Part shown: positions 2,632 through 11,384 of the stretch, piece after piece
Layout of the letters: each line of letters starts with the position of its first letter
Position numbering within the stretch: position 1 is the first letter of the stretch
From: Thermomonas flagellata
Lineage (GTDB): Bacteria > Pseudomonadota > Gammaproteobacteria > Xanthomonadales > Xanthomonadaceae
Length of the DNA: 64,000 bases
Direction of reading: 5' to 3'
Assembly: GCF_022419185.1 (NCBI RefSeq)
Contig: NZ_JAJOZK010000001.1
Coordinates: 248,001 to 312,000, forward strand
Translations under genes and position numbers: made by a program
The notes under the pieces: generated by a model
Told to the model about the DNA's origin: nothing
Seen by the model: only the letters and a program-made list of their open reading frames with translations
Database searches by the model: none

Positions 2632-3309
2632 TCACTGGTTGACGGGCGAGTCGGGGTCGAACAGCAGGGCCATCACGTCGCGGATCTGCTGCTCGGTGAG
2701 GATGCCCATGTGCCCGAAGCGCGGCATGTTGGAGCAGACCATCATGCCCTTGGTGTCGTAGATCTTGCCCCAGGTGTACTTGAGGATGGCTTCGGACTGG
2801 CCGCGCAGCTTGCCGTAGTTGTACAGCGACGGGCCGAGGGTGCCGTAGGCGACCTCGTCCTTGGCCAGCTGGTGGCAGGCGTAGCAGTTGCCGCCGGAGG
2901 GCACGTTGGGATCGTCGGAGTACTGCTTGCCGAAGCCGTCCTGCGCGATCTTCTCGCCCTGCTTCCAGTCGCCCAGGTACTTGCCGTCGGCCGGGTACCG
3001 GATCGCGGCCTGGTTGCGCTCCATCAGCTTGCGCACGATCGCCGGCGGCGGGTCGTCGGGGGCGTACAGCGAGCACTCGGCCTGGGTGTAGTCCTGCTTG
3101 AGCCGGTCCATCCCGGCCTGGCCGTGCGGCTTGAACGAGCGCAGCATGGCCTGGTAGGCCAGCGCGTTGCGGTCGGGCTTGCCCGCCTTGGCCGGCGCGG
3201 CGGGCTTGGCGGCCGGCTTGGCGGCGGCGGTGTCCTTGCCGGCGGCCAGCAGCATCGGAGTGGCAGCGGCGAGCAGCAGCGGAACGACGGCGATCATCAG
3301 GCGCTTCAT
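2632..3309 (-). CDS. soxX: SoxX, c-type cytochrome subunit of SoxAX
   Basis: SoxX is the electron-accepting cytochrome c of the SoxAX complex, which couples thiosulfate oxidatively to the SoxY cysteine. The 225-residue protein has a signal peptide followed by an Ala/Lys/Pro-rich spacer (residues about 25-45), one CxxCH heme motif (C142-C145-H146 in GNCYACHQL) and a likely axial methionine in SNMPRFGH near residue 195. A GGAG ribosome site lies 8 bases before the ATG. The gene begins 12 bases after the soxA stop, the usual soxA-soxX pairing. The low-complexity spacer makes it longer than minimal SoxX proteins. Confidence 0.95.
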   Translation of the reverse strand: MKRLMIAVVPLLLAAATPMLLAAGKDTAAAKPAAKPAAPAKAGKPDRNALAYQAMLRSFKPHGQAGMDRLKQDYTQAECSLYAPDDPPPAIVRKLMERNQAAIRYPADGKYLGDWKQGEKIAQDGFGKQYSDDPNVPSGGNCYACHQLAKDEVAYGTLGPSLYNYGKLRGQSEAILKYTWGKIYDTKGMMVCSNMPRFGHMGILTEQQIRDVMALLFDPDSPVNQ

Positions 3310-3321
3310 GGCGGCGGCTCC

Positions 3322-4146
3322 TCAACGCTTCAGGCCGGGGGCGGCCATCACGCCGCCTTCGGCGTTCTTGGCCAGGAACAGGGTGAGGGCGATCGGCACC
3401 TCGGAGGCGTAGATCATTTCCGGCAGGCGCTGCTGGCGGAAGCAGTCGCCGAGGCGCCATTCGAGGGTGCGCACCTCGCCCTGCGAGACGCGATAGGCCG
3501 GCCAAGTGGTCATCGCCTCCTTGGCGCCGTCGGCGGCGGCCAGGTCCGGCAGCTGCTGCAGGCGGATGCGCTTGCCCTCCTGGCTGTGGCAGGTGCTGCA
3601 GCCGAAGTCGTGGGTGCCGGCGCGGTAGTAGAACAGCGCCTTGCCCAGCGCGTAGGCCTGCTTCTCCTTGGGATGGGTGAGCGCGACCTTGATCGGCATC
3701 CCGCGCGACTGGTCGGCGATGTAGGCCGCCAGCGCCTCGATGTCGGACTTGTTGTCGCCGTCGCCGAAGCGGTGCGCGAGCAGGGTGTCGCGGTCCAGGC
3801 CCTGGTCGCGCACCATGCAGGTCAGCAGGCGCGAGTCCAAGTCCTCGACCTTGTCGCTGTCCTTGAAGTAGCGCGGCAGCTGCGCGTAGGCGCCCTTGAC
3901 CACGCCCTTGCCGAGGCCGAGGTCGCAGACCGCGGCCAGCGCCACGTTCTTCGGCCCGCGCGGCTGCTCCCACAGGTCCTTGCCGCGGCTCTGCCACAGT
4001 TCGGCGGGGTTGTCGTCGCCGAACATGGCGCGGTATTCGGCCACCGGGTCGTCCTTGGCCGACTGCGCGTAGGCCAGGGTGGCGGCGGCGCCCAGCCCGA
4101 GGGCCAGCCCGACGGCGGTGCGGATCGCGGTCTTGGTCAGTTTCAT
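3322..4146 (-). CDS. soxA: SoxA, monoheme type
   Basis: SoxA is the catalytic subunit of SoxAX, a periplasmic heme enzyme that forms the thiosulfate-SoxY conjugate. The protein has 274 residues with a signal peptide ending near AYA (residue 27). Only one CxxCH motif is present (CSTCH, C183-H187). The candidate active-site cysteine, the one modified to a persulfide in the family, is C235 in DCFRQQR. Two further cysteines, C74 and C110, sit where diheme SoxA proteins carry the N-terminal heme domain; in monoheme SoxA this pair is known to form a disulfide, and that is inferred here. The gene precedes soxX with a 12-base gap. Confidence 0.95.
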   Translation of the reverse strand: MKLTKTAIRTAVGLALGLGAAATLAYAQSAKDDPVAEYRAMFGDDNPAELWQSRGKDLWEQPRGPKNVALAAVCDLGLGKGVVKGAYAQLPRYFKDSDKVEDLDSRLLTCMVRDQGLDRDTLLAHRFGDGDNKSDIEALAAYIADQSRGMPIKVALTHPKEKQAYALGKALFYYRAGTHDFGCSTCHSQEGKRIRLQQLPDLAAADGAKEAMTTWPAYRVSQGEVRTLEWRLGDCFRQQRLPEMIYASEVPIALTLFLAKNAEGGVMAAPGLKR

Positions 4147-4207: not shown

Positions 4208-4666
4208 TCAGGGCTTGATGTAAGCGTACCCTTCGCGGAACTGTAGGCGGGCGATCTCGGCCACGCCGGACGGCACCACCTGCAGCCCGTCGATCAGCTG
4301 CTTCGGCTCGAGCGCCAGGGCCTTGAGGGTGTTGGCACAGACCTCGAAGCGCACCCCGCGCCCCTGCAGGTCTTCGACCATCAGCTCGAGCGGATAGCCG
4401 CCGGGGGTCTGGGTGCCCTGTTTGAACGCGGTCACCGCCTTGCCATTGGCCACCACCACGATCTGCGCCTGCGGATCGGCGTCGAGGTGGTTGCGGATGT
4501 TGTTGATCCCGTGCACGACCTGGTCGAGGTCGCGGTCGAAGTGGTAGACCACCCGCACCGGGGCGGGTGTCGGCGCGGCAGCGGCGGCCGGCTCGGCGGC
4601 CTGCGCGGGCAGGGTGGGCAGCATCGCGAGCAGGCTGGCGGCGAGCAGGAAGGCGGGCGTGCGCAT
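4208..4666 (-). CDS. Secreted DsrE/DsrF-like protein
   Basis: This 152-residue protein has a clear Sec signal peptide (hydrophobic core, then AQAAEP near residue 24), an Ala/Pro-rich linker and a DsrE/YchN-type fold with the motif FEVCANTLKAL carrying one conserved cysteine. DsrE-family proteins relay sulfur as persulfides. Periplasmic members are often found in sox clusters, where they may bind or shuttle sulfane sulfur, but the function of this subtype is not established. It lies between soxZ and soxA in the same orientation, 61 bases before soxA and 56 after soxZ. The family call is good; the specific role is inference. Confidence 0.85.
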   Translation of the reverse strand: MRTPAFLLAASLLAMLPTLPAQAAEPAAAAAPTPAPVRVVYHFDRDLDQVVHGINNIRNHLDADPQAQIVVVANGKAVTAFKQGTQTPGGYPLELMVEDLQGRGVRFEVCANTLKALALEPKQLIDGLQVVPSGVAEIARLQFREGYAYIKP

Positions 4667-4722: not shown

Positions 4723-5034
4723 TCAGCTGATGGTCGCCTCGTCGGTGCGGGTGTCGCCCGCGGTGTCGGTCCAGGTCACGCTGATCTTGTCGCCCGCCTT
4801 CGGGCCCTTGAAGCGGAACGCCAGGAACGGGTTCTTCGATACCGCCGGGCCCCAGTCCGCGCTCAGCACGGTCTTGCCGTTCCAGGTCGCGGTCACCTTC
4901 TCGATGAACATCGCCGGCACCAGCTTGCCGCTGGCGTCCTTGCGCTGGCCGGTCTCCATCGGGTGCGACATCAGGATCTTCACTTCGGCCACGTCACCGT
5001 TCATGGTGGCGCGGATTCGCATCGGGTCTGCCAT
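4723..5034 (-). CDS. soxZ: SoxZ, thiosulfate carrier subunit
   Basis: SoxZ pairs with SoxY to form the periplasmic carrier on which sulfur intermediates are covalently held. I start it at the ATG at 5034 (MADPMRIRAT, 103 residues) because GGAGAGA lies just upstream; a further in-frame ATG at 5064 would abut the soxY stop and adds residues absent from typical SoxZ. The protein has no signal peptide, as expected: SoxZ is co-exported with Tat-targeted SoxY. Family features seen include the N-terminal RIRAT, the HPMETGQRKD segment and the conserved FIEKVTATWNG strand. It immediately follows soxY. Confidence 0.95.
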   Translation of the reverse strand: MADPMRIRATMNGDVAEVKILMSHPMETGQRKDASGKLVPAMFIEKVTATWNGKTVLSADWGPAVSKNPFLAFRFKGPKAGDKISVTWTDTAGDTRTDEATIS

Positions 5035-5064
5035 GGTCTCTCTCCGGGAAGTCGTAAGTCGCAA

Positions 5065-5538
5065 TCAGCCGCCGCAGCCGCCGAGGGTCACCTTCACCAC
5101 CTGGTCGGTGTAGAAGTAGCCCTGGTCGGTCTGCACCAGCGCGTACAGCTTGGAGGTCTCGGCGACCTTGACGCGGGTGGAGATGTACGGTTCGGTCCCG
5201 TCCGGGATCTGGAACTCGGCCGACAGCGCGTGCGGGTTCTTCTCCGAGAGGATCGCGATCATCTTGGTGCCCGGCAGCTTGCTGGTGATCTCCACCGGCA
5301 CGGTGGCGCCGTTCTCGGCGATCTCCGGGGCCTTGAGCACGATTTGGTCGGACTTCTGCGCGGCGTTGCCGCCCAGGGCCTTGACCACCTCGTCGAGGGT
5401 CTTGCCCTTGAACGCGGCGCGGTTCTCGACGAACTCGGCCGCCAGCGCGGAGACCGGCACCAGGCCGGCCGCGGCCATGGCCAGCAGGGCGGCGCCACCG
5501 GCGCTGGTCTTGAGGAAATGTCTGCGGGTGTACTGCAT
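5065..5538 (-). CDS. soxY: SoxY, sulfur-carrier protein
   Basis: SoxY carries thiosulfate-derived sulfur on a cysteine near its flexible C-terminus while the other Sox enzymes act on it. The 157-residue protein begins with a Tat signal (RRHFLKTSAGG, then an Ala-rich core to about residue 34) and ends in the diagnostic GGCGG, with the carrier cysteine at residue 155. It sits 45 bases after soxD and directly before soxZ, the invariable Y-Z order. Confidence 0.98.
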   Translation of the reverse strand: MQYTRRHFLKTSAGGAALLAMAAAGLVPVSALAAEFVENRAAFKGKTLDEVVKALGGNAAQKSDQIVLKAPEIAENGATVPVEITSKLPGTKMIAILSEKNPHALSAEFQIPDGTEPYISTRVKVAETSKLYALVQTDQGYFYTDQVVKVTLGGCGG

Positions 5539-5583: not shown

Positions 5584-6558
5584 TTACTTGTCCGGGGCGC
5601 CGGCCAGCAGCCACTTGACGATGGTGTCGAGATCGCCGGCGGACAGGTTGGGCTGCGGTGGCATCGGCACCTGGCCCCAGACGCCGCTGCCGCCCTCGTG
5701 GATCTTCTGGTGCAGGTGCTTGCTCGCGGCCTCGGGGTCGGCCTTGTACTTCTCGTAGACCATGCGGAAGCCGGGGCCGACCACGGCCTCCTTCAGGCCG
5801 TGGCAGGCGGTGCAGCCGTTGTCCTGCACCAGCTGCCAGCCCTTGGCATCCCCGCCGCCCTCGGCGCTGGCGGTTGCCGCCGCGCTCGCCGGCGGGGCCT
5901 GGGTGTTCATGGTGTAGAGCGGATTGAAGTTGTCGCGGATGTCGCCGTACATGCTCTCGACGAAGCCGTCGGGCAGGCGCGCGGTCACCTTCACGTCCTT
6001 GGCGCAATCCTTCATGCAGGCCGTGTTGTGGGTGTCCGGCTTGCCGTCGATCTTCATCAGGCCTTCGAACAGGACGTACTTGGTCGCCGCCGGCATCTCG
6101 ACCTTGGGCAGGGTGTCCTTGTTGGCGACGAAGTCGGCCGGCACCCGGTCGTTGAGGTTCAGCACGTAGGCCGCGATCGCATAGACCTCGTTCGGGCTGA
6201 GCGACTTCGAGTGCGGGTAGGGCATCGCCCGGTTGATGTAGTCGTACAGGGTCGGCGCGGCGTTGAGATGCTTGCCGACGGTGCGGTCGCCGCCGCCGGC
6301 GATCGGGATGTAGTTGCTGCTCTCGCCGAAGGTGCCGTGGCACATGGCGCAGTGCTTCTCGTACAGGCCCTCGCCCTCGGAGACCGAGCCCTGGCCGGCC
6401 GGCAGACCGGTGCCGTCGGCGAGCACCTCGATGTCCCAGCCGGCGATCTCCTGCGGGGTCGCGGTGCGGCCGAGGCGGTAGTTGTTGGCGGCGGCGACCC
6501 CGGTGCCGAGGGCCAGGGCGATCGCGGCGACGATGGCGATGCGGTCAAACTTCGACAT
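5584..6558 (-). CDS. soxD: SoxD, diheme cytochrome c
   Basis: SoxD is the cytochrome subunit of the Sox(CD)2 sulfane dehydrogenase, taking the six electrons released when SoxC oxidises the SoxY-bound sulfane sulfur. It has 324 residues: an N-terminal hydrophobic segment (residues 7-24), a first heme motif CAMCHG (C70-H74) in an N-terminal cytochrome domain, and a second CTACHG (C248-H252) in a C-terminal domain. An additional CMKDC pair near residues 181-185 lies between the domains and has no heme histidine. An Ala/Gly-rich linker (about 223-238) joins the two halves. The start overlaps the end of soxC by 14 bases, indicating translational coupling of the two subunits. Confidence 0.95.
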   Translation of the reverse strand: MSKFDRIAIVAAIALALGTGVAAANNYRLGRTATPQEIAGWDIEVLADGTGLPAGQGSVSEGEGLYEKHCAMCHGTFGESSNYIPIAGGGDRTVGKHLNAAPTLYDYINRAMPYPHSKSLSPNEVYAIAAYVLNLNDRVPADFVANKDTLPKVEMPAATKYVLFEGLMKIDGKPDTHNTACMKDCAKDVKVTARLPDGFVESMYGDIRDNFNPLYTMNTQAPPASAAATASAEGGGDAKGWQLVQDNGCTACHGLKEAVVGPGFRMVYEKYKADPEAASKHLHQKIHEGGSGVWGQVPMPPQPNLSAGDLDTIVKWLLAGAPDK

Positions 6559-7897
6559 TGTGGACCTTCCCCTGTTCGTCGACCAACCAGGTCTGGATGG
6601 CGTTGAAGTGGTACACCGAGTTGGTGCCGCGCACCGCCCGCAGCTGCTGCACGGTGGGCTGCACGAAGCCGGTCTCGTCGATGCAGCGGCTCTGCAGCAG
6701 CGCCGGGCTGCCGTCCCACCACCAGTCGAGGCGGAAGCGGGTCAGCGCCTTGCTCAGCACCGGCTCCTGCAATTGCGCGGTCTTCCAGTTCTTGCCGCCG
6801 TCGGTGGACACGTCCACCCGCTTGATCTTGCCGCGCCCGGACCAGGCCAGGCCGGTGATCTGGTAGTAGCCGCCCTTGTCCAGGAGTTGCTGGCCGCCGG
6901 ACGGCGAGGTGATGACCGACTTGGCCTCCTGGATCCAGGTGTACTGGCGGGTGGTGCCGTCCGGCATCATGTCGGAGTACTGCAGGGTCTCCTCGCGGGT
7001 GTTGAACGGCACTTCGCTCAGCTTGATCCGGCGCAGCCACTTGACGTTGGAGACGCCCTGCACGCCCGGCACCAGCAGGCGCAGCGGATAGCCCTGCTCG
7101 GGGCGCAGCATCTCGCCGTTCTGGCCGTACACCACCAGCACGTCGCGCAGGGCGAAGTCCATCGGGATGGTGCGGGTCATGGCGGCGCCGTCGGCGCCCT
7201 CGGCCAGCAGGTACTTGGCGCGCTTCACATCCGCGCCGACGTCCTCCAGCAGCACCGCCAGCGGCACCCCGGTCCATTCCGCGCAGGAGAGCATGCCGTG
7301 GGTGTACTGCACGGTCGGCACCGCGGGGTTGGCCCATTCCATCGCCGAATTGGCGCCGCACTCGATGAAGTGGATCCGCGAGACCGACGGGAAGCGCATG
7401 ATGTCTTCCATCGTGTAGATCTTCGGGTTCTTCACCAGGCCCGGGAAGCCGTGGATGATCAGCCGGTGGTCGTAGGGATTGATGTCCGGGCGGCCGTTGT
7501 GGTCGCGCTCGAAGAACAGGCCGTTGGCGGTGATGATGCCGAACGAGTTCTGCAGCGGGGTGAACACCACCGAGGAGGTGTCGGTCGGGGTCAGGCCCGG
7601 GCTCTGGCGGCGGATGTTGTAGGCCTCGTAACGCGAGGGCTCGCCGTAGCCGACCTTCACCGGCTTGCCGAGCGCCTTCGACCATTCCGGCACGTTCGGC
7701 GGCAGGTTCTTCGGGTTGGAGGCCGGCGGTATGCCCTTGTCCTGCGCCAGCACGCCGCCGCCCATGCCCGCGGCGGCCACGCCGGCGGCGCCGGCGAGGA
7801 GCTTCTTGATGGCGTCGCGGCGTGCCACCTTGGGCACGGTGAGGAAGTTTTCCGGCGCCGGGATCAGGCGACCCGGGGTCTGCGAAGGTTGGTCCAC
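6545..7897 (-). CDS. soxC: SoxC, molybdopterin sulfane dehydrogenase subunit
   Basis: SoxC is the molybdenum-cofactor subunit of sulfane dehydrogenase, a sulfite-oxidase-family protein. With SoxCD present, thiosulfate can be oxidised fully to sulfate without storing sulfur. The 450-residue protein has a Tat signal (ARRDAIKKLLAGAAG). The molybdopterin-domain cysteine is probably the one in HFIECGANS near residue 180. The dimerisation domain follows, ending in RAVRGTNSVYHFN and a final DEQGKVHNVEV. Its 3' end overlaps soxD by 14 bases. Confidence 0.95.
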   Translation of the reverse strand: MDQPSQTPGRLIPAPENFLTVPKVARRDAIKKLLAGAAGVAAAGMGGGVLAQDKGIPPASNPKNLPPNVPEWSKALGKPVKVGYGEPSRYEAYNIRRQSPGLTPTDTSSVVFTPLQNSFGIITANGLFFERDHNGRPDINPYDHRLIIHGFPGLVKNPKIYTMEDIMRFPSVSRIHFIECGANSAMEWANPAVPTVQYTHGMLSCAEWTGVPLAVLLEDVGADVKRAKYLLAEGADGAAMTRTIPMDFALRDVLVVYGQNGEMLRPEQGYPLRLLVPGVQGVSNVKWLRRIKLSEVPFNTREETLQYSDMMPDGTTRQYTWIQEAKSVITSPSGGQQLLDKGGYYQITGLAWSGRGKIKRVDVSTDGGKNWKTAQLQEPVLSKALTRFRLDWWWDGSPALLQSRCIDETGFVQPTVQQLRAVRGTNSVYHFNAIQTWLVDEQGKVHNVEV

Positions 7898-7939: not shown

Positions 7940-8905
7940 TCAGCGTGCCGGCAGCCCGGCCACCGGCCGGTCCTCGGCGGTCCACTCGTGCATCGAGCCG
8001 TCGTACAGCTTGCTCGGGGTGCCCAGCACCTCGTTCATCACGAACCAGGCCCCGGATGCCAGGTGGCCGGTGTTGCAGTAGGTGATGCTCGGCTTGTGCG
8101 GGTCGATGCCGAGGGTCTTGAGGATGTCCGCGTACTGCGCGCGGTCCAGGAATTCCTCGGCGCCGCCGGCCTGGCGGCTGCGCGCCTCCGGCGGGAAGTC
8201 GTGCGCGCCGGGGATGCGGCCGGCCTTGCTGGCGACCGGCTTCTTGGTCAGCCCCAGCCAGAACGCGACCGGGCGCGCGTCGATCAACTGCTCGCCGTGC
8301 TTGGCGGCCTCCGCGACCTGGCGGCTGTCGGCCAGGATCGCCTTGTCCTCGCCGGTGGCCACCCAGTCGCCCTTGGTCTTGGGCGCCGGATCCGAGCTGA
8401 CCGGGTTGCCGGCCAGCAGCCAGGCGGTGGTGCCGCCGTTGAGGATGGCCAACTGGCGCGCGCCGTAGTACTTGAGCGACCAGTACAGGCGCGCAGCCAT
8501 GTCGAGATCGTTGCCGCTGGCACCGGCGGACACGATCACGATCGGCTTGCCGGCCTGCACCCCGGCATCCTGCATCAGGCGCTGGAAGGTGGCGCGGTCG
8601 ACCAGCATGGCCTTGATCGTGCGGCCGTCGATCTTGCGGTCGGCGCGCAGGGCGTTGAAATCCACCATCAGCGAACCGGGGACGTGGCCGCCGACCTCGT
8701 CGAGCACCTGCTTGCCGTTGTCGGTGACGTACTTGGGGGCCGAGGTGAAGTCCTTCGGGTCTTCGACCACGGTCAGCACGTTCACCTCAGCGCGGTGCGC
8801 CGCCAGCCACTGCGGGGTGACCAGCGGACCAGGCAGTTCGACCGCTGCGGCGATGCCGCTGAACGCCAGCAGGGCAGTGGTCAAAAGCAGCATCAGGCGT
8901 TTCAT
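7940..8905 (-). CDS. Periplasmic rhodanese (thiosulfate sulfurtransferase)
   Basis: This is a two-domain rhodanese of 321 residues with a signal peptide (MKRLMLLLTTALLAFSGIAA, cleavage near residue 21). The catalytic cysteine is C277 in the TYCNTGHLAS loop of the C-terminal domain; the N-terminal domain lacks an equivalent cysteine, as is usual. It would move sulfane sulfur from thiosulfate or a persulfide to an acceptor in the periplasm. It lies 42 bases before soxC in the same orientation and probably belongs to the sox transcript. The physiological acceptor is unknown; SoxYZ, the DsrE-like protein or the Cys-repeat protein nearby are possible. Confidence 0.9.
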   Translation of the reverse strand: MKRLMLLLTTALLAFSGIAAAVELPGPLVTPQWLAAHRAEVNVLTVVEDPKDFTSAPKYVTDNGKQVLDEVGGHVPGSLMVDFNALRADRKIDGRTIKAMLVDRATFQRLMQDAGVQAGKPIVIVSAGASGNDLDMAARLYWSLKYYGARQLAILNGGTTAWLLAGNPVSSDPAPKTKGDWVATGEDKAILADSRQVAEAAKHGEQLIDARPVAFWLGLTKKPVASKAGRIPGAHDFPPEARSRQAGGAEEFLDRAQYADILKTLGIDPHKPSITYCNTGHLASGAWFVMNEVLGTPSKLYDGSMHEWTAEDRPVAGLPAR

Positions 8906-8959: not shown

Positions 8960-9652
8960 TCAGGTCGTGGCTGCCAGCGCGGCGATCTGCGCCGGCAGGT
9001 CGATCCGGCACTGGCTGAGCACGCGGATGCGGCGGTCCTCCAGCAGCCGCTGCCGGCTGCGGCCGCGGCGCAGTATGCGCAGGCGCTGGTCGCGCCGCCG
9101 CAGCAGCGCGGCCAGCTGCGGGCGGAACAGCGCCAGCTGCGGCAGCAGCCAGCGCGTCAGCGGGTCCGGGTAGGCGCGCGCCGCGATACGGTCGGCGTCC
9201 GCCAGTACGGCCGCGGCCGGGACGAGCGTCTCGTCGGTGACCCAGCGGTTGGTGGTGAACAGCCGCCGCGGCCAGCCGACCGCATCCACCGCGACGCCGG
9301 CCAGATGGACGTGGTGGCCGTCCGCGCGGCGGGCGAACACATGGAAATGCCCGTGCTCGCCCGCCGGCGTCTCGCGCGCGTCGTGGCAGTGGTAGTAGTA
9401 CAGGTAGTCCGGGCCCTGCACCGGCGCGGCTGCGGGGTACTGCGCGAGCACCGCCGGCACGCTGTCGCCGATCAGCGCGCTGACCGGCGAAAGCCCGCGC
9501 CGGGCCAGCGCCTCCAGCCCGTCGAGCACCGACCGCGCCGCGCGCCGTGCCTGCCGGCGCGCACGGGCGGGCAGGCGGGCGGCATCCGCGTCCCAACGCA
9601 CCCAGCTGGAGGGCGGCGGGGCGGGCATCGCGCGGGCGGCGACAGCGGACAT
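8960..9652 (-). CDS. Conserved protein with GEHGHFH motif, unknown function
   Basis: I do not recognise a characterised function. The protein (230 residues from the ATG at 9652; a TTG at 9661 is an alternative start) has no signal peptide. It is Arg/Ala-rich at both ends. The middle is histidine-rich and looks conserved: DYLYYYHCHDAR, then GEHGHFHVFARR and HHVHLAGVAVD, which together could bind a metal. It may belong to a DUF6969-like family, but I am not sure of that name. The gene starts 16 bases after the Cys-repeat gene and is followed after 54 bases by the rhodanese gene, so co-expression with both is likely. A role in maturing or handling the Cys-repeat protein is speculation from position. 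Confidence 0.7.
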   Translation of the reverse strand: MSAVAARAMPAPPPSSWVRWDADAARLPARARRQARRAARSVLDGLEALARRGLSPVSALIGDSVPAVLAQYPAAAPVQGPDYLYYYHCHDARETPAGEHGHFHVFARRADGHHVHLAGVAVDAVGWPRRLFTTNRWVTDETLVPAAAVLADADRIAARAYPDPLTRWLLPQLALFRPQLAALLRRRDQRLRILRRGRSRQRLLEDRRIRVLSQCRIDLPAQIAALAATT

Positions 9653-9668
9653 CAGCGACAAGGGGAGA

Positions 9669-10064
9669 TCAGTCGCACTTGGCCTTCGGCGCGCACGGGT
9701 TGGCGGCCTTCTTCTCGTCGCACTTCTTGGCCGCCGGGGCGCAGGGGTTGGCCGCCTTCTTGGCGGCGGGCGCGCACGGGTTGCTGGCCTTCTTGGTCGC
9801 CGGGGCGCAGGGGTTGGCCGCCTTCTTGGCGGCGGGCGCGCACGGGTTGCTGGCCTTCTTGGTCGCCGGGGCGCAGGGGTTGGCCGCCTTCTTGGCGGCG
9901 GGCGCGCACGGGTTGGCGGCCTTCTTGCGCGCCGGCGCGCAGGGGTTCTGCGCCTGCGGGGCGGCGGCAGTGGCGGCCGCGACCGGGGCGACCGCGCCGA
10001 TCAGCAGTGCGGTGGCGGACAGGGCGGCGGCCAGCGAGGTCTTGCGGGAGGTCGGCTTACGCAT
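9669..10064 (-). CDS. Secreted Cys-repeat protein with eight NPCAP units
   Basis: This 131-residue protein starts at ATG 10064 with GAGGGA upstream. It has a signal peptide (residues about 8-34, ending VAAATAAAP). The mature part is almost wholly an 11-residue repeat, NPCAPA(A/T)KKA(A/S), present eight times: seven full units, the last carrying an insert CDEKK, and a final NPCAPKAKCD. The mature chain is rich in Lys, Ala, Pro and Cys with one Cys per unit, and has no aromatic residues. No enzyme fold is apparent. Possible roles are metal (copper, zinc) binding, storage of sulfane sulfur as persulfides, or a precursor peptide modified at its cysteines. It lies between the YeeE-type transporter pair and the His-rich protein, with a palindromic operator candidate of its own upstream. 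Existence and export are well supported; function is unknown. Confidence 0.8.
   Translation of the reverse strand: MRKPTSRKTSLAAALSATALLIGAVAPVAAATAAAPQAQNPCAPARKKAANPCAPAAKKAANPCAPATKKASNPCAPAAKKAANPCAPATKKASNPCAPAAKKAANPCAPAAKKCDEKKAANPCAPKAKCD
9748..9879. repeat. Two identical 66-bp tandem repeats
   Basis: Bases 9748-9813 and 9814-9879 are identical 66-base units, followed by a partial third copy from 9880. Each unit encodes two 11-residue NPCAP modules, one ATKKAS type and one AAKKAA type. Identity at the DNA level, including synonymous positions, indicates recent duplication by slippage or unequal recombination, so copy number may differ between strains or be collapsed in assemblies. 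Confidence 0.93.
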
Positions 10065-10102: not shown

Positions 10103-10122
10103 GGATACCCGGGCGGGTATCC
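10103..10122. promoter_or_regulatory. Palindromic operator candidate, CsoR/CstR-like
   Basis: The sequence GGATACCCGGGCGGGTATCC is a perfect inverted repeat with 8-base arms and a 4-base centre. It lies 38 bases upstream of the Cys-repeat gene start, in the gap after the YeeE gene. Its TACCC-N4-GGGTA form resembles the G/C-rich pseudo-palindromes bound by CsoR/CstR-family repressors, some of which sense persulfides. No such regulator gene is visible in the window. Confidence 0.55.
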
Positions 10123-10138: not shown

Positions 10139-10717
10139 TCAATCGTGATCGGTGACGCCTGGCGCGGATTCGCCGCGGGTGAAGCGATTGACCAGCCAAG
10201 CGACGACGGCCAGCGCGAGGATGATCAGCCACGCCGGCAGGTGCAGCAGCTGCTGCAGGGTCTGGCCTTCCGGGCCTTCCGCCGCGGTCATCAGCGGCTG
10301 CAGCGGGTCGTAGAACCCGGCGAACACGATCGCGCCGAGCACCAGGCCGATGAAGAACACCACGCCGTCGATCCGGCCGGCGGCCGCGCCGACCACCGAG
10401 GTCCCCGGACAATAGCCGCCGAGCGCCATGCCGGCGCCGACCATCGCGCCGCCGAGCAGGGTGGCCCACAGGTAGGTGGTGGGCACGTAGACCTCCTCCG
10501 GCGACAGCAGGCCGACCGTCTCCAGCAGCCACAGCCCGGCCGCCGCGACCAGGATCGCGGTGAACATCACGTTGAACACCGTCCAGTCCTTGAAGCGCAA
10601 CTGGCCGGTCAGGCGGCAGCCATTGCCGAGGCCGCCGCGCTGCAGCACGTAGCCGAACAGGCCGCCCAGCACCAGGCCCGAGAGCGGGCCGCTCCAACCG
10701 ATCGGGAAGCTGCTCAT
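10139..10717 (-). CDS. YeeE/YedE-type sulfur transporter, subunit 2
   Basis: This is a 192-residue integral membrane protein of the YeeE/YedE (TsuA-like) family, with about four to five hydrophobic segments. Members transport thiosulfate or related sulfur species through conserved membrane cysteines. Here GNGCRLTG (near residue 33) and GGYCPGTS (near residue 100) are present. The ATG at 10717 overlaps the stop of the preceding YeeE gene (ATGA), so the two half-size proteins are made together and probably form one transporter. The position at the head of the sox region suggests import, export or relay of thiosulfate or sulfane sulfur. Confidence 0.88.
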   Translation of the reverse strand: MSSFPIGWSGPLSGLVLGGLFGYVLQRGGLGNGCRLTGQLRFKDWTVFNVMFTAILVAAAGLWLLETVGLLSPEEVYVPTTYLWATLLGGAMVGAGMALGGYCPGTSVVGAAAGRIDGVVFFIGLVLGAIVFAGFYDPLQPLMTAAEGPEGQTLQQLLHLPAWLIILALAVVAWLVNRFTRGESAPGVTDHD

Positions 10718-11226
10718 TTCCACCACCCCTTGGTCAACAGGCCGAACACCGCCCCGACCGCGAAGAAGCCGATCAGGAACACGAAGCCCGCGGTCGCCAG
10801 CACCGCCGCGCCGGACAGGCCGAGGCCGCTGGTGCAGCCGAGCGAGATGCGCGCGCCCACGCCGGAGATGATCCCCGCCAGCAGCGCCATGCCCAGGCGC
10901 GCGGGCGAACCGAGCCGGTCCGGCCCGTCGATGCGCAGGCGGAAGTGGCCGGAGGCGAACGCGGCGATCAGCGCGCCGAGCAGCACCCCGAGCACTTCCC
11001 AGCTGATCCAGTTGGTGAGCGGATTGGCGCCGTCGGCGACCATCCCGCCGAGATACTCGTTGCTGGCGGTCGCGGCCGGCGCGACCGCCTTGGCCGTGAC
11101 TGCTGCCACCGCGGTCGGCGCGCCGGAGGCGCCGAGGCCGTGGCCGGTCATGAGGAAGGTGAGCAGCAGCACCAGGCCGAGGATGACCCCGGTGAAGTGC
11201 GCATTCCAGATTGGACGTACGCGCAT
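10714..11226 (-). CDS. YeeE/YedE-type sulfur transporter, subunit 1
   Basis: This 170-residue membrane protein is the partner of the next gene, with an N-terminal segment (residues about 10-30), a polar Ala/Thr-rich loop (33-65) and three C-terminal segments. The family motif GARISLGCTSGLGLSG with its conserved cysteine is near residues 125-140. It overlaps the next gene by 4 bases. Single-chain TsuA has about twice this length; paired half-size proteins are common in sulfur-oxidising proteobacteria. It is the first gene of the minus-strand sulfur island, so its upstream region probably carries the main promoter. Confidence 0.88.
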   Translation of the reverse strand: MRVRPIWNAHFTGVILGLVLLLTFLMTGHGLGASGAPTAVAAVTAKAVAPAATASNEYLGGMVADGANPLTNWISWEVLGVLLGALIAAFASGHFRLRIDGPDRLGSPARLGMALLAGIISGVGARISLGCTSGLGLSGAAVLATAGFVFLIGFFAVGAVFGLLTKGWWK

Positions 11227-11267: not shown

Positions 11268-11285
11268 CATACCCCGGAGGGCATG
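11268..11285. promoter_or_regulatory. Operator candidate upstream of YeeE pair
   Basis: CATACCC-CGGA-GGGCATG is an inverted repeat with one mismatch in 7-base arms and a 4-base centre, the same architecture as the perfect palindrome at 10103-10122. It lies 41 bases upstream of the first YeeE gene. A second, less regular palindrome (ATGACACCC-G-GGGTGGTAT on the minus strand) lies at 11293-11311. The shared form suggests a common regulator for both transcription starts. Confidence 0.45.
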
Positions 11286-11384
11286 AAAACGCATACCACC
11301 CCGGGTGTCATGTTGCGTTGCGCAAGAGCCGCCGGGCTTTCGCCCCAGATCACAGAATGGCAGGCCAAACCGGAGCGGCGCGTG

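Follow-up and report, generated by a model that had tools for sequence, protein, structure and literature searches.

What does a small, export-type protein built on a cysteine repeat do inside a sulfur-oxidation operon, and which partner does it have there? The gene in question lies at 9669-10064 on the minus strand of the whole stretch of DNA analysed here (the window, 64,000 nucleotides), and translates into 131 amino acids and a stop codon. The protein, which ends in NPCAPKAKCD, carries eight NPCAP units, with starts 11, 11, 11, 11, 11, 11 and 16 residues apart, and ten cysteines, two of them outside the units; its N-terminus, read by eye, is of the export type, with a basic start and then a hydrophobic stretch. 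TRF independently located an array at 9723-9947 (66-bp period, score 408). A first-pass annotation had described a secreted protein of eight NPCAP repeats and no other domain, and this description is borne out: translation and TRF agree on the repeat, the N-terminus fits by eye, and searches against Pfam and PHROGs returned no match for the protein, while its sole NCBIfam match was meaningless (E 0.26). N-P-C-A-P is identical in all eight units although the proline and alanine codons differ among them, and such fixity despite synonymous variation points to selection at the protein level. A strict repeat detector, which demands three or more [NSADTGK]PC[AGSNPKTVED] units with neighbours at most 30 residues apart, found one ORF in the 64-kb window against one across 20 mononucleotide-shuffled windows combined.

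The Cys-repeat gene is the third in a same-strand series with gaps of only -14 to 74 nt, from which we infer a single transcript. On the minus strand throughout, the series opens with two YeeE halves, at 10714-11226 (matching the C-terminal half of the Sulf_transp profile, PF04143, E 3.3e-19) and 10139-10717 (PF04143, E 3.2e-19). After the Cys-repeat gene come a DUF6969 protein, the putative maturation partner (8960-9661; Pfam PF22308, 149.2 bits against a cut-off of 27), and a two-domain rhodanese with an export-type N-terminus by eye (7940-8905; PF00581, E 9.5e-17), which scores below the cut-off of the 3-mercaptopyruvate sulfurtransferase model. There follow SoxC (6545-7897; TIGR04555, 603 bits), a SoxD-type cytochrome (5584-6558; no NCBIfam match), SoxY of the GGCGG type (5065-5538; TIGR04488, 158 bits), SoxZ (4723-5064; TIGR04490, 136 bits), a DsrE-like protein, again export-type by eye (4208-4666; PF02635, E 7.8e-11), SoxA (3322-4146; TIGR04484, 237 bits), SoxX (2632-3309; TIGR04485, 90 bits) and SoxB (879-2600; TIGR04486, 889 bits). 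SoxC, SoxY, SoxZ, SoxA, SoxX and SoxB all score above their NCBIfam cut-offs. The neighbours named in the first-pass annotation, namely a YeeE pair, a His-rich protein (the DUF6969 protein), a rhodanese and soxCDYZ, are therefore the right ones, SoxD by position and CxxCH motifs only. The YeeE pair is of the split PmpAB type; pmpAB of Hyphomicrobium denitrificans showed no thiosulfate response and were set aside as unrelated to sulfur oxidation, so that a split YeeE pair alone is no proof of a role in that process (PMC11582611).

Upstream of the Cys-repeat gene, at 10105-10120, lies the palindrome ATACCCGGGCGGGTAT (0 mismatches), a possible CsoR-family operator. The pattern ATACCC-N4-GGGTAT has four matches in the window against 0.21 expected, weaker copies at 11269-11284 and 11293-11308 standing before the first YeeE gene and the fourth match elsewhere in the window; operator-like palindromes showed no clear conservation in relatives. 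A CsoR-family repressor gene (G000:C7:247603-247839) is found 161 bp outside the window, past the gene that follows soxB, and its best match is a copper-sensor model, far below cut-off (38 against 175 bits).

Searching directly with the repeat protein, as had been proposed earlier, reached only its own genome among 151 genomes of the order (E 1e-6) and nothing among plasmids (E 0.01). Since a repeat of such low complexity defeats direct search, relatives were reached through the conserved neighbour DUF6969. This family, of which the protein at 8960-9661 is a clear member and whose name carries no assigned function, was present in 26 of 274 genomes of the class, 8 of 299 of the order and 20 of 398 of the phylum (the window's genome being counted in each), and in at least 563 confirmed stretches of the species-level genome_contigs collection. 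The best 80 of these stretches were used, and they lean to one subtype since they were ranked by similarity to the first sequence of the query. With the window and 52 further loci they make 133, reduced to 130 by leaving out L089, L104 and L108, which fail the DUF motif; one locus is counted twice among the 130 (L095 and L136, with identical DUF6969). The family-sampled part comprises 53 loci (the window, 25 and 27), two of them from genome G916.

The DUF6969 gene regularly stands beside a gene for a Cys-repeat protein. In the family-sampled set, 47 of the 53 loci have such a partner by eye within about 2 kb, that of L039 being cut by the contig end; the six lacking one are L041, L042, L058, L094, L101 (where DUF6969 sits at the contig start) and L104. 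A strict repeat ORF occurs no more than 4 kb from DUF6969 in 93/130 loci and farther away in 3/130, with flank lengths that vary with contig ends, and an exported-type partner is seen by eye in 23 of the 26 class-level genomes. Where the repeat ORF is codirectional and upstream, the median distance to the DUF6969 start is 60 nt (63 cases, some with an intervening gene); in the window, the Cys-repeat stop codon is followed after 7 or 16 nt by the DUF6969 start (TTG at 9661 or ATG at 9652, respectively). The partners are diverse. Several loci outside the strict count have a Cys-repeat ORF of another type directly upstream of DUF6969: CAATCAAT in L045, CCGCCG in L046, forms with only two NPC or SPC units in L051, L087, L088 and L090, KCGAKC-type partners in L091 and the left-out L089 and L108, and CCAAEG and ACAAG lipoprotein-like forms in L106, L107 and L109. 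'Exported' is a reading by eye, apart from a hydrophobicity rule that flags 64 of 116 Cys-repeat ORFs, and an N-terminal LLS-type motif was found in only 32 of 106 precursors. The repeat detector found no repeat around soxY in 30 loci, a weak control, the stretches being so short that the window's own misses its repeat gene.

The pairing extends to named plasmids of Sinorhizobium meliloti R28, Ciceribacter thiooxidans and Burkholderia glumae; near the DUF6969 gene of an Azospirillum lipoferum plasmid no clear Cys-repeat partner was seen. On pSymA of Sinorhizobium meliloti (L225, 7493-7996, plus strand) an ORF with PCAAG repeats behind an anchor-like start, missing from the ORF table, lies directly upstream of DUF6969. 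Plasmid bglu_2p of Burkholderia glumae BGR1 (L228) carries DUF6969 and a KCGAKC/KCAPKC export-type ORF within an arsenosugar biosynthesis cluster. In the literature searched, no paper was found for the DUF6969 name, the PF22308 accession or NPCAAK strings; the Cys-repeat gene and DUF6969 form a widespread gene pair that is apparently undescribed.

What kind of protein is DUF6969? None of the 130 members has a hydrophobic N-terminal stretch, so the protein is probably cytosolic. Across 72 aligned rows Y87, H88, H90, E99, H100, G101, H102, F103, H104, H116, G126 and N135 are invariant; part of this invariance is built in, because the rows were collected with a motif demanding the HxH and EHGHxH letters, outside which H116, G126 and N135 lay. 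The three loci that failed the motif, L089, L104 and L108, still show HxH and GHxH, L104 with Ile for H100. No cysteine is fixed (even in the best column, 45 of 72 rows carry one), which makes DUF6969 look unlike a sulfur carrier. The AlphaFold model is confident (pLDDT 92.3, pTM 0.89). The alternating histidines, presumably on neighbouring strands, suggest a putative metal site. Neither fold nor sequence matches point to catalysis: Foldseek of the model against the PDB gave nothing at E <= 1e-3 (best 0.7), and a PDB sequence search nothing usable (best E 0.63).

The repeat type follows the DUF6969 lineage. Six repeat classes over 107 rows require 7 changes on a quick DUF6969 tree, built with no bootstrap and with a long-branch warning that includes the window row, against a shuffled mean of 30.0, and 0 of 200 shuffles were as low. 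The membrane-anchored PC[GS]L class forms one side of a branch, and the NPCxP class, to which the window is assigned, needs three changes. The residue after the cysteine is A, G or S in 65 to 88% of cases, whichever the class. Tails of NPCAx and NPCxP have a median charge of +6 and those of PC[GS]L one of -7, so that the lysines flanking the repeat, mentioned in the first-pass annotation, are not conserved family-wide; nor are eight thiols a requirement, since L087, L088 and L090 have two NPC units. Across the family, then, the cysteine persists while lysines, charge and repeat number vary.

How far does the family belong to sulfur metabolism? The two repeat classes nearest the window together comprise 23 loci (13 PC[GS]L and 10 NPCxP, grouped by class and not by clade), of which 21 have YeeE nearby and 20 a rhodanese, compared with 18 and 1 of the 107 other loci. 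Of the 36 rows in the tree set that contains the window, 13 belong to other repeat classes, and those of the 13 that could be placed are mostly free of YeeE and rhodanese. The soxC and soxD profiles occur in the same six of 130 loci (the window, L087, L088, L090, L111 and L112), and the closest sox-operon relatives have only two NPC units. At genome level, SoxB is found in 20 of 26 DUF6969 genomes of the class sample, one of them below the family cut-off, against 95 of the 248 remaining genomes (Fisher p 2.4e-4, kinship ignored), SoxB being common in that sample (115/274); in the order sample SoxY is present in 5 of 8 DUF6969 genomes against 28 of 291 others (p 5e-4, kinship ignored). The association with sulfur genes, for which the first-pass annotation had proposed a co-occurrence test, is thus tight for YeeE and rhodanese in the two nearest classes and appears genome-wide as an enrichment of SoxB, but soxC and soxD profiles are confined to those six loci.

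Within 2.5 kb of DUF6969, SoxA/TsdA-type cytochromes occur in 34/130 loci, many of them repeat-flanked, and P460-like cytochromes, DUF302 and DUF2336 in 14, 14 and 10, the names of neighbour families resting on one to three representatives each (P460-like 1/3 and YeeE 5/5 pass the Pfam cut-off). NPCA repeats border SoxA/TsdA-type cytochrome domains, on one side or on both, in L035, L036, L044, L098, L100, L122 and others; for the L122 protein, the one of these searched against Pfam, the domain scores E 3e-11, and a PDB sequence search with the repeat-flanked cytochrome of L098 brought nothing better than weak matches to cytochrome c peroxidase (best E 0.015). The P460-type ORF of L157 has 40 PC units. 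In 27/130 loci DUF6969 has an FGE/SUMF1-like gene no farther than 2.5 kb away, on the same strand in 25 of the 27, and many of these records are titled Alphaproteobacteria. Widespread homologues with no link to sulfur genes had been named in advance as evidence against a sulfur role, and in part this is what we find, since the homologues are widespread and mostly stand beside other genes: cytochromes, FGE/SUMF1-like proteins, MNIO or, on a single plasmid, arsenosugar genes. The sulfur link is real but limited, most of the family not being beside sox, YeeE or rhodanese.

The explanation that we prefer, tentatively and with slightly less than even confidence, draws on these sequence comparisons: the Cys-repeat protein and DUF6969 would be one functional unit, in which DUF6969 matures the poly-Cys tail and which, near the window, handles sulfane sulfur. 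The repeat protein would be made with an export signal or a membrane anchor, and cytosolic DUF6969 would act on its tail before or during export; maturation before export best explains a cytosolic-looking protein with a near-fixed His/Glu set beside export-type Cys partners. We infer that DUF6969 is most likely a metal-dependent enzyme, whose HxH...EHGHxH...H cluster would modify the cysteines in a RiPP-like maturation. The finished protein could be a flexible envelope arm that carries reactive sulfur sites. Its most likely part near the window would be to accept or relay sulfane sulfur from thiosulfate, with the periplasmic rhodanese as a possible donor and the YeeE transporter as a possible importer; the presence of rhodanese and YeeE on either side in the nearest classes makes sulfane sulfur the likeliest cargo. 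What the comparisons themselves show is the pairing of the genes, the conserved Cys of the partner and His/Glu set of DUF6969, and a gene order that is conserved near the window. The modifier could instead be an MNIO, for which the window's genome has a single match, on another contig. MNIO is found in 35 of 51 DUF6969 genomes; being absent from the other 16, it cannot be the general partner. The first-pass annotation had offered three ideas for the protein, and of these the modified precursor gains from the DUF6969 partner, the plain sulfane-sulfur buffer is weakened by the two-unit relatives, and metal binding persists as a rival.

In that rival, a serious alternative which we nonetheless think unlikely, the Cys-repeat protein, perhaps after modification by DUF6969, would have a bufferin-like function and bind copper or some other soft metal in the envelope; the sulfur genes would adjoin since the stresses that reactive sulfur and soft metals bring about are linked. 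Bufferin-type MNIO, DUF2063 and DoxX genes in 9, 8 and 8 of 130 loci are consistent with it, as are the MNIO genes adjoining DUF6969 in L089 and L108 (outside the 130), the likeness of KCGAKC-type partners to described MNIO precursors (PMC12452194), nearby ECF sigma and zf-HC2 genes, the arsenosugar genes on one plasmid, and the CsoR-family repressor with its best, far sub-threshold match to a copper sensor (38 of 175 bits). Yet the recurrent neighbours in the two nearest classes are rhodanese and YeeE, no metal transporter appears among the gene clusters named by family (others were left unnamed), MNIO is missing from 16/51 DUF6969 genomes, and cysteines spaced as CxC or CxxC are absent from the window protein.

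Less probable again is an unmodified thiol buffer, in which the repeat protein itself stores sulfane sulfur or keeps thiols available, while DUF6969 serves in regulation, as a chaperone or in metabolism. The many cysteines of some members (the 40 PC units of L157) and the rhodanese adjoining in the window's nearest classes would suit such a role, but the two-unit NPC/SPC relatives (L051, L087, L088 and L090) speak against bulk storage, and it leaves unexplained why a His-cluster protein is paired with the repeat across repeat types. That the repeats form an envelope scaffold, cross-linked by disulfides or anchoring SoxA/TsdA-like and P460-like cytochromes at the membrane or surface, seems quite improbable: repeats and cytochrome domains do share ORFs, and membrane-anchored and lipoprotein-like forms exist (by eye), but many partners are small with no other domain (by eye), and of 130 loci only 7 have a thioredoxin gene and 5 a DsbD gene no farther than 2.5 kb away. 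A chance low-complexity ORF or repeat-array artefact, as high-GC tandem repeats and long ORFs in other frames might suggest, is scarcely credible given the synonymous variation with fixed NPCAP, the operon position and the recurrent partners in other genomes.

Returning to maturation by DUF6969, a broader form of the proposal can be put forward, although we regard it as doubtful: DUF6969 may represent a new class of metal-dependent maturases, distinct from the MNIOs, which convert the cysteines of genetically encoded poly-Cys tails into reactive sulfur or redox groups, giving RiPP-like envelope arms in sulfur-oxidising and other Pseudomonadota, with both free small proteins and the tails of SoxA/TsdA-like and P460-like cytochromes as substrates. 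The pairing offers DUF6969 a testable role.

Several known systems invite comparison. Metallothionein-type metal binders have clustered CxC/CxxC spacing, whereas the array of the window protein has one Cys per 11 residues and the protein contains neither CxC nor CxxC. The SoxYZ sulfur carrier likewise brings to a sox operon a Cys arm that may take up sulfur from thiosulfate (PMC11582611), but the Cys-repeat protein has many cysteines in place of one, no SoxY domain by Pfam or NCBIfam and no GGCGG C-terminal arm, and the true SoxY is encoded separately at 5065-5538. If DUF6969 modifies cysteines, Sox-type sulfur oxidation could gain an additional carrier. In YeeE-type sulfur import, a YeeE-like SoxT lies beside sox genes and PmpA/PmpB form half-length pairs; the window's YeeE pair likewise starts its gene series, and the passages at hand on SoxT/PmpAB mention no Cys-repeat protein (PMC11582611).

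The closest likeness is to the MNIO (DUF692) systems, bufferins and oxazolins with EGKCG-repeat precursors, in which an exported Cys-rich precursor, sometimes with a long repeat, is encoded beside its modifier (PMC12452194); of these features the window protein has a certain Cys repeat, an N-terminus that looks hydrophobic by eye and, in DUF6969, a putative modifier next to it. The window differs in that neither MNIO nor DUF2063 was found near its DUF6969, that DUF6969 is a different Pfam family, and that the repeat motif is NPCAP, with no EGKCG of the oxazolin type; family-wide, 3/130 loci have MNIO (PF05114) no more than 2.5 kb from DUF6969. Bufferin-type sets, in which MNIO is frequently joined by DUF2063 and DoxX, are seen near DUF6969 in L038, L089, L091, L108, L114, L131 and others. 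If DUF6969 does modify cysteines, it would constitute a second protein lineage, beside the MNIOs, acting on exported Cys precursors.
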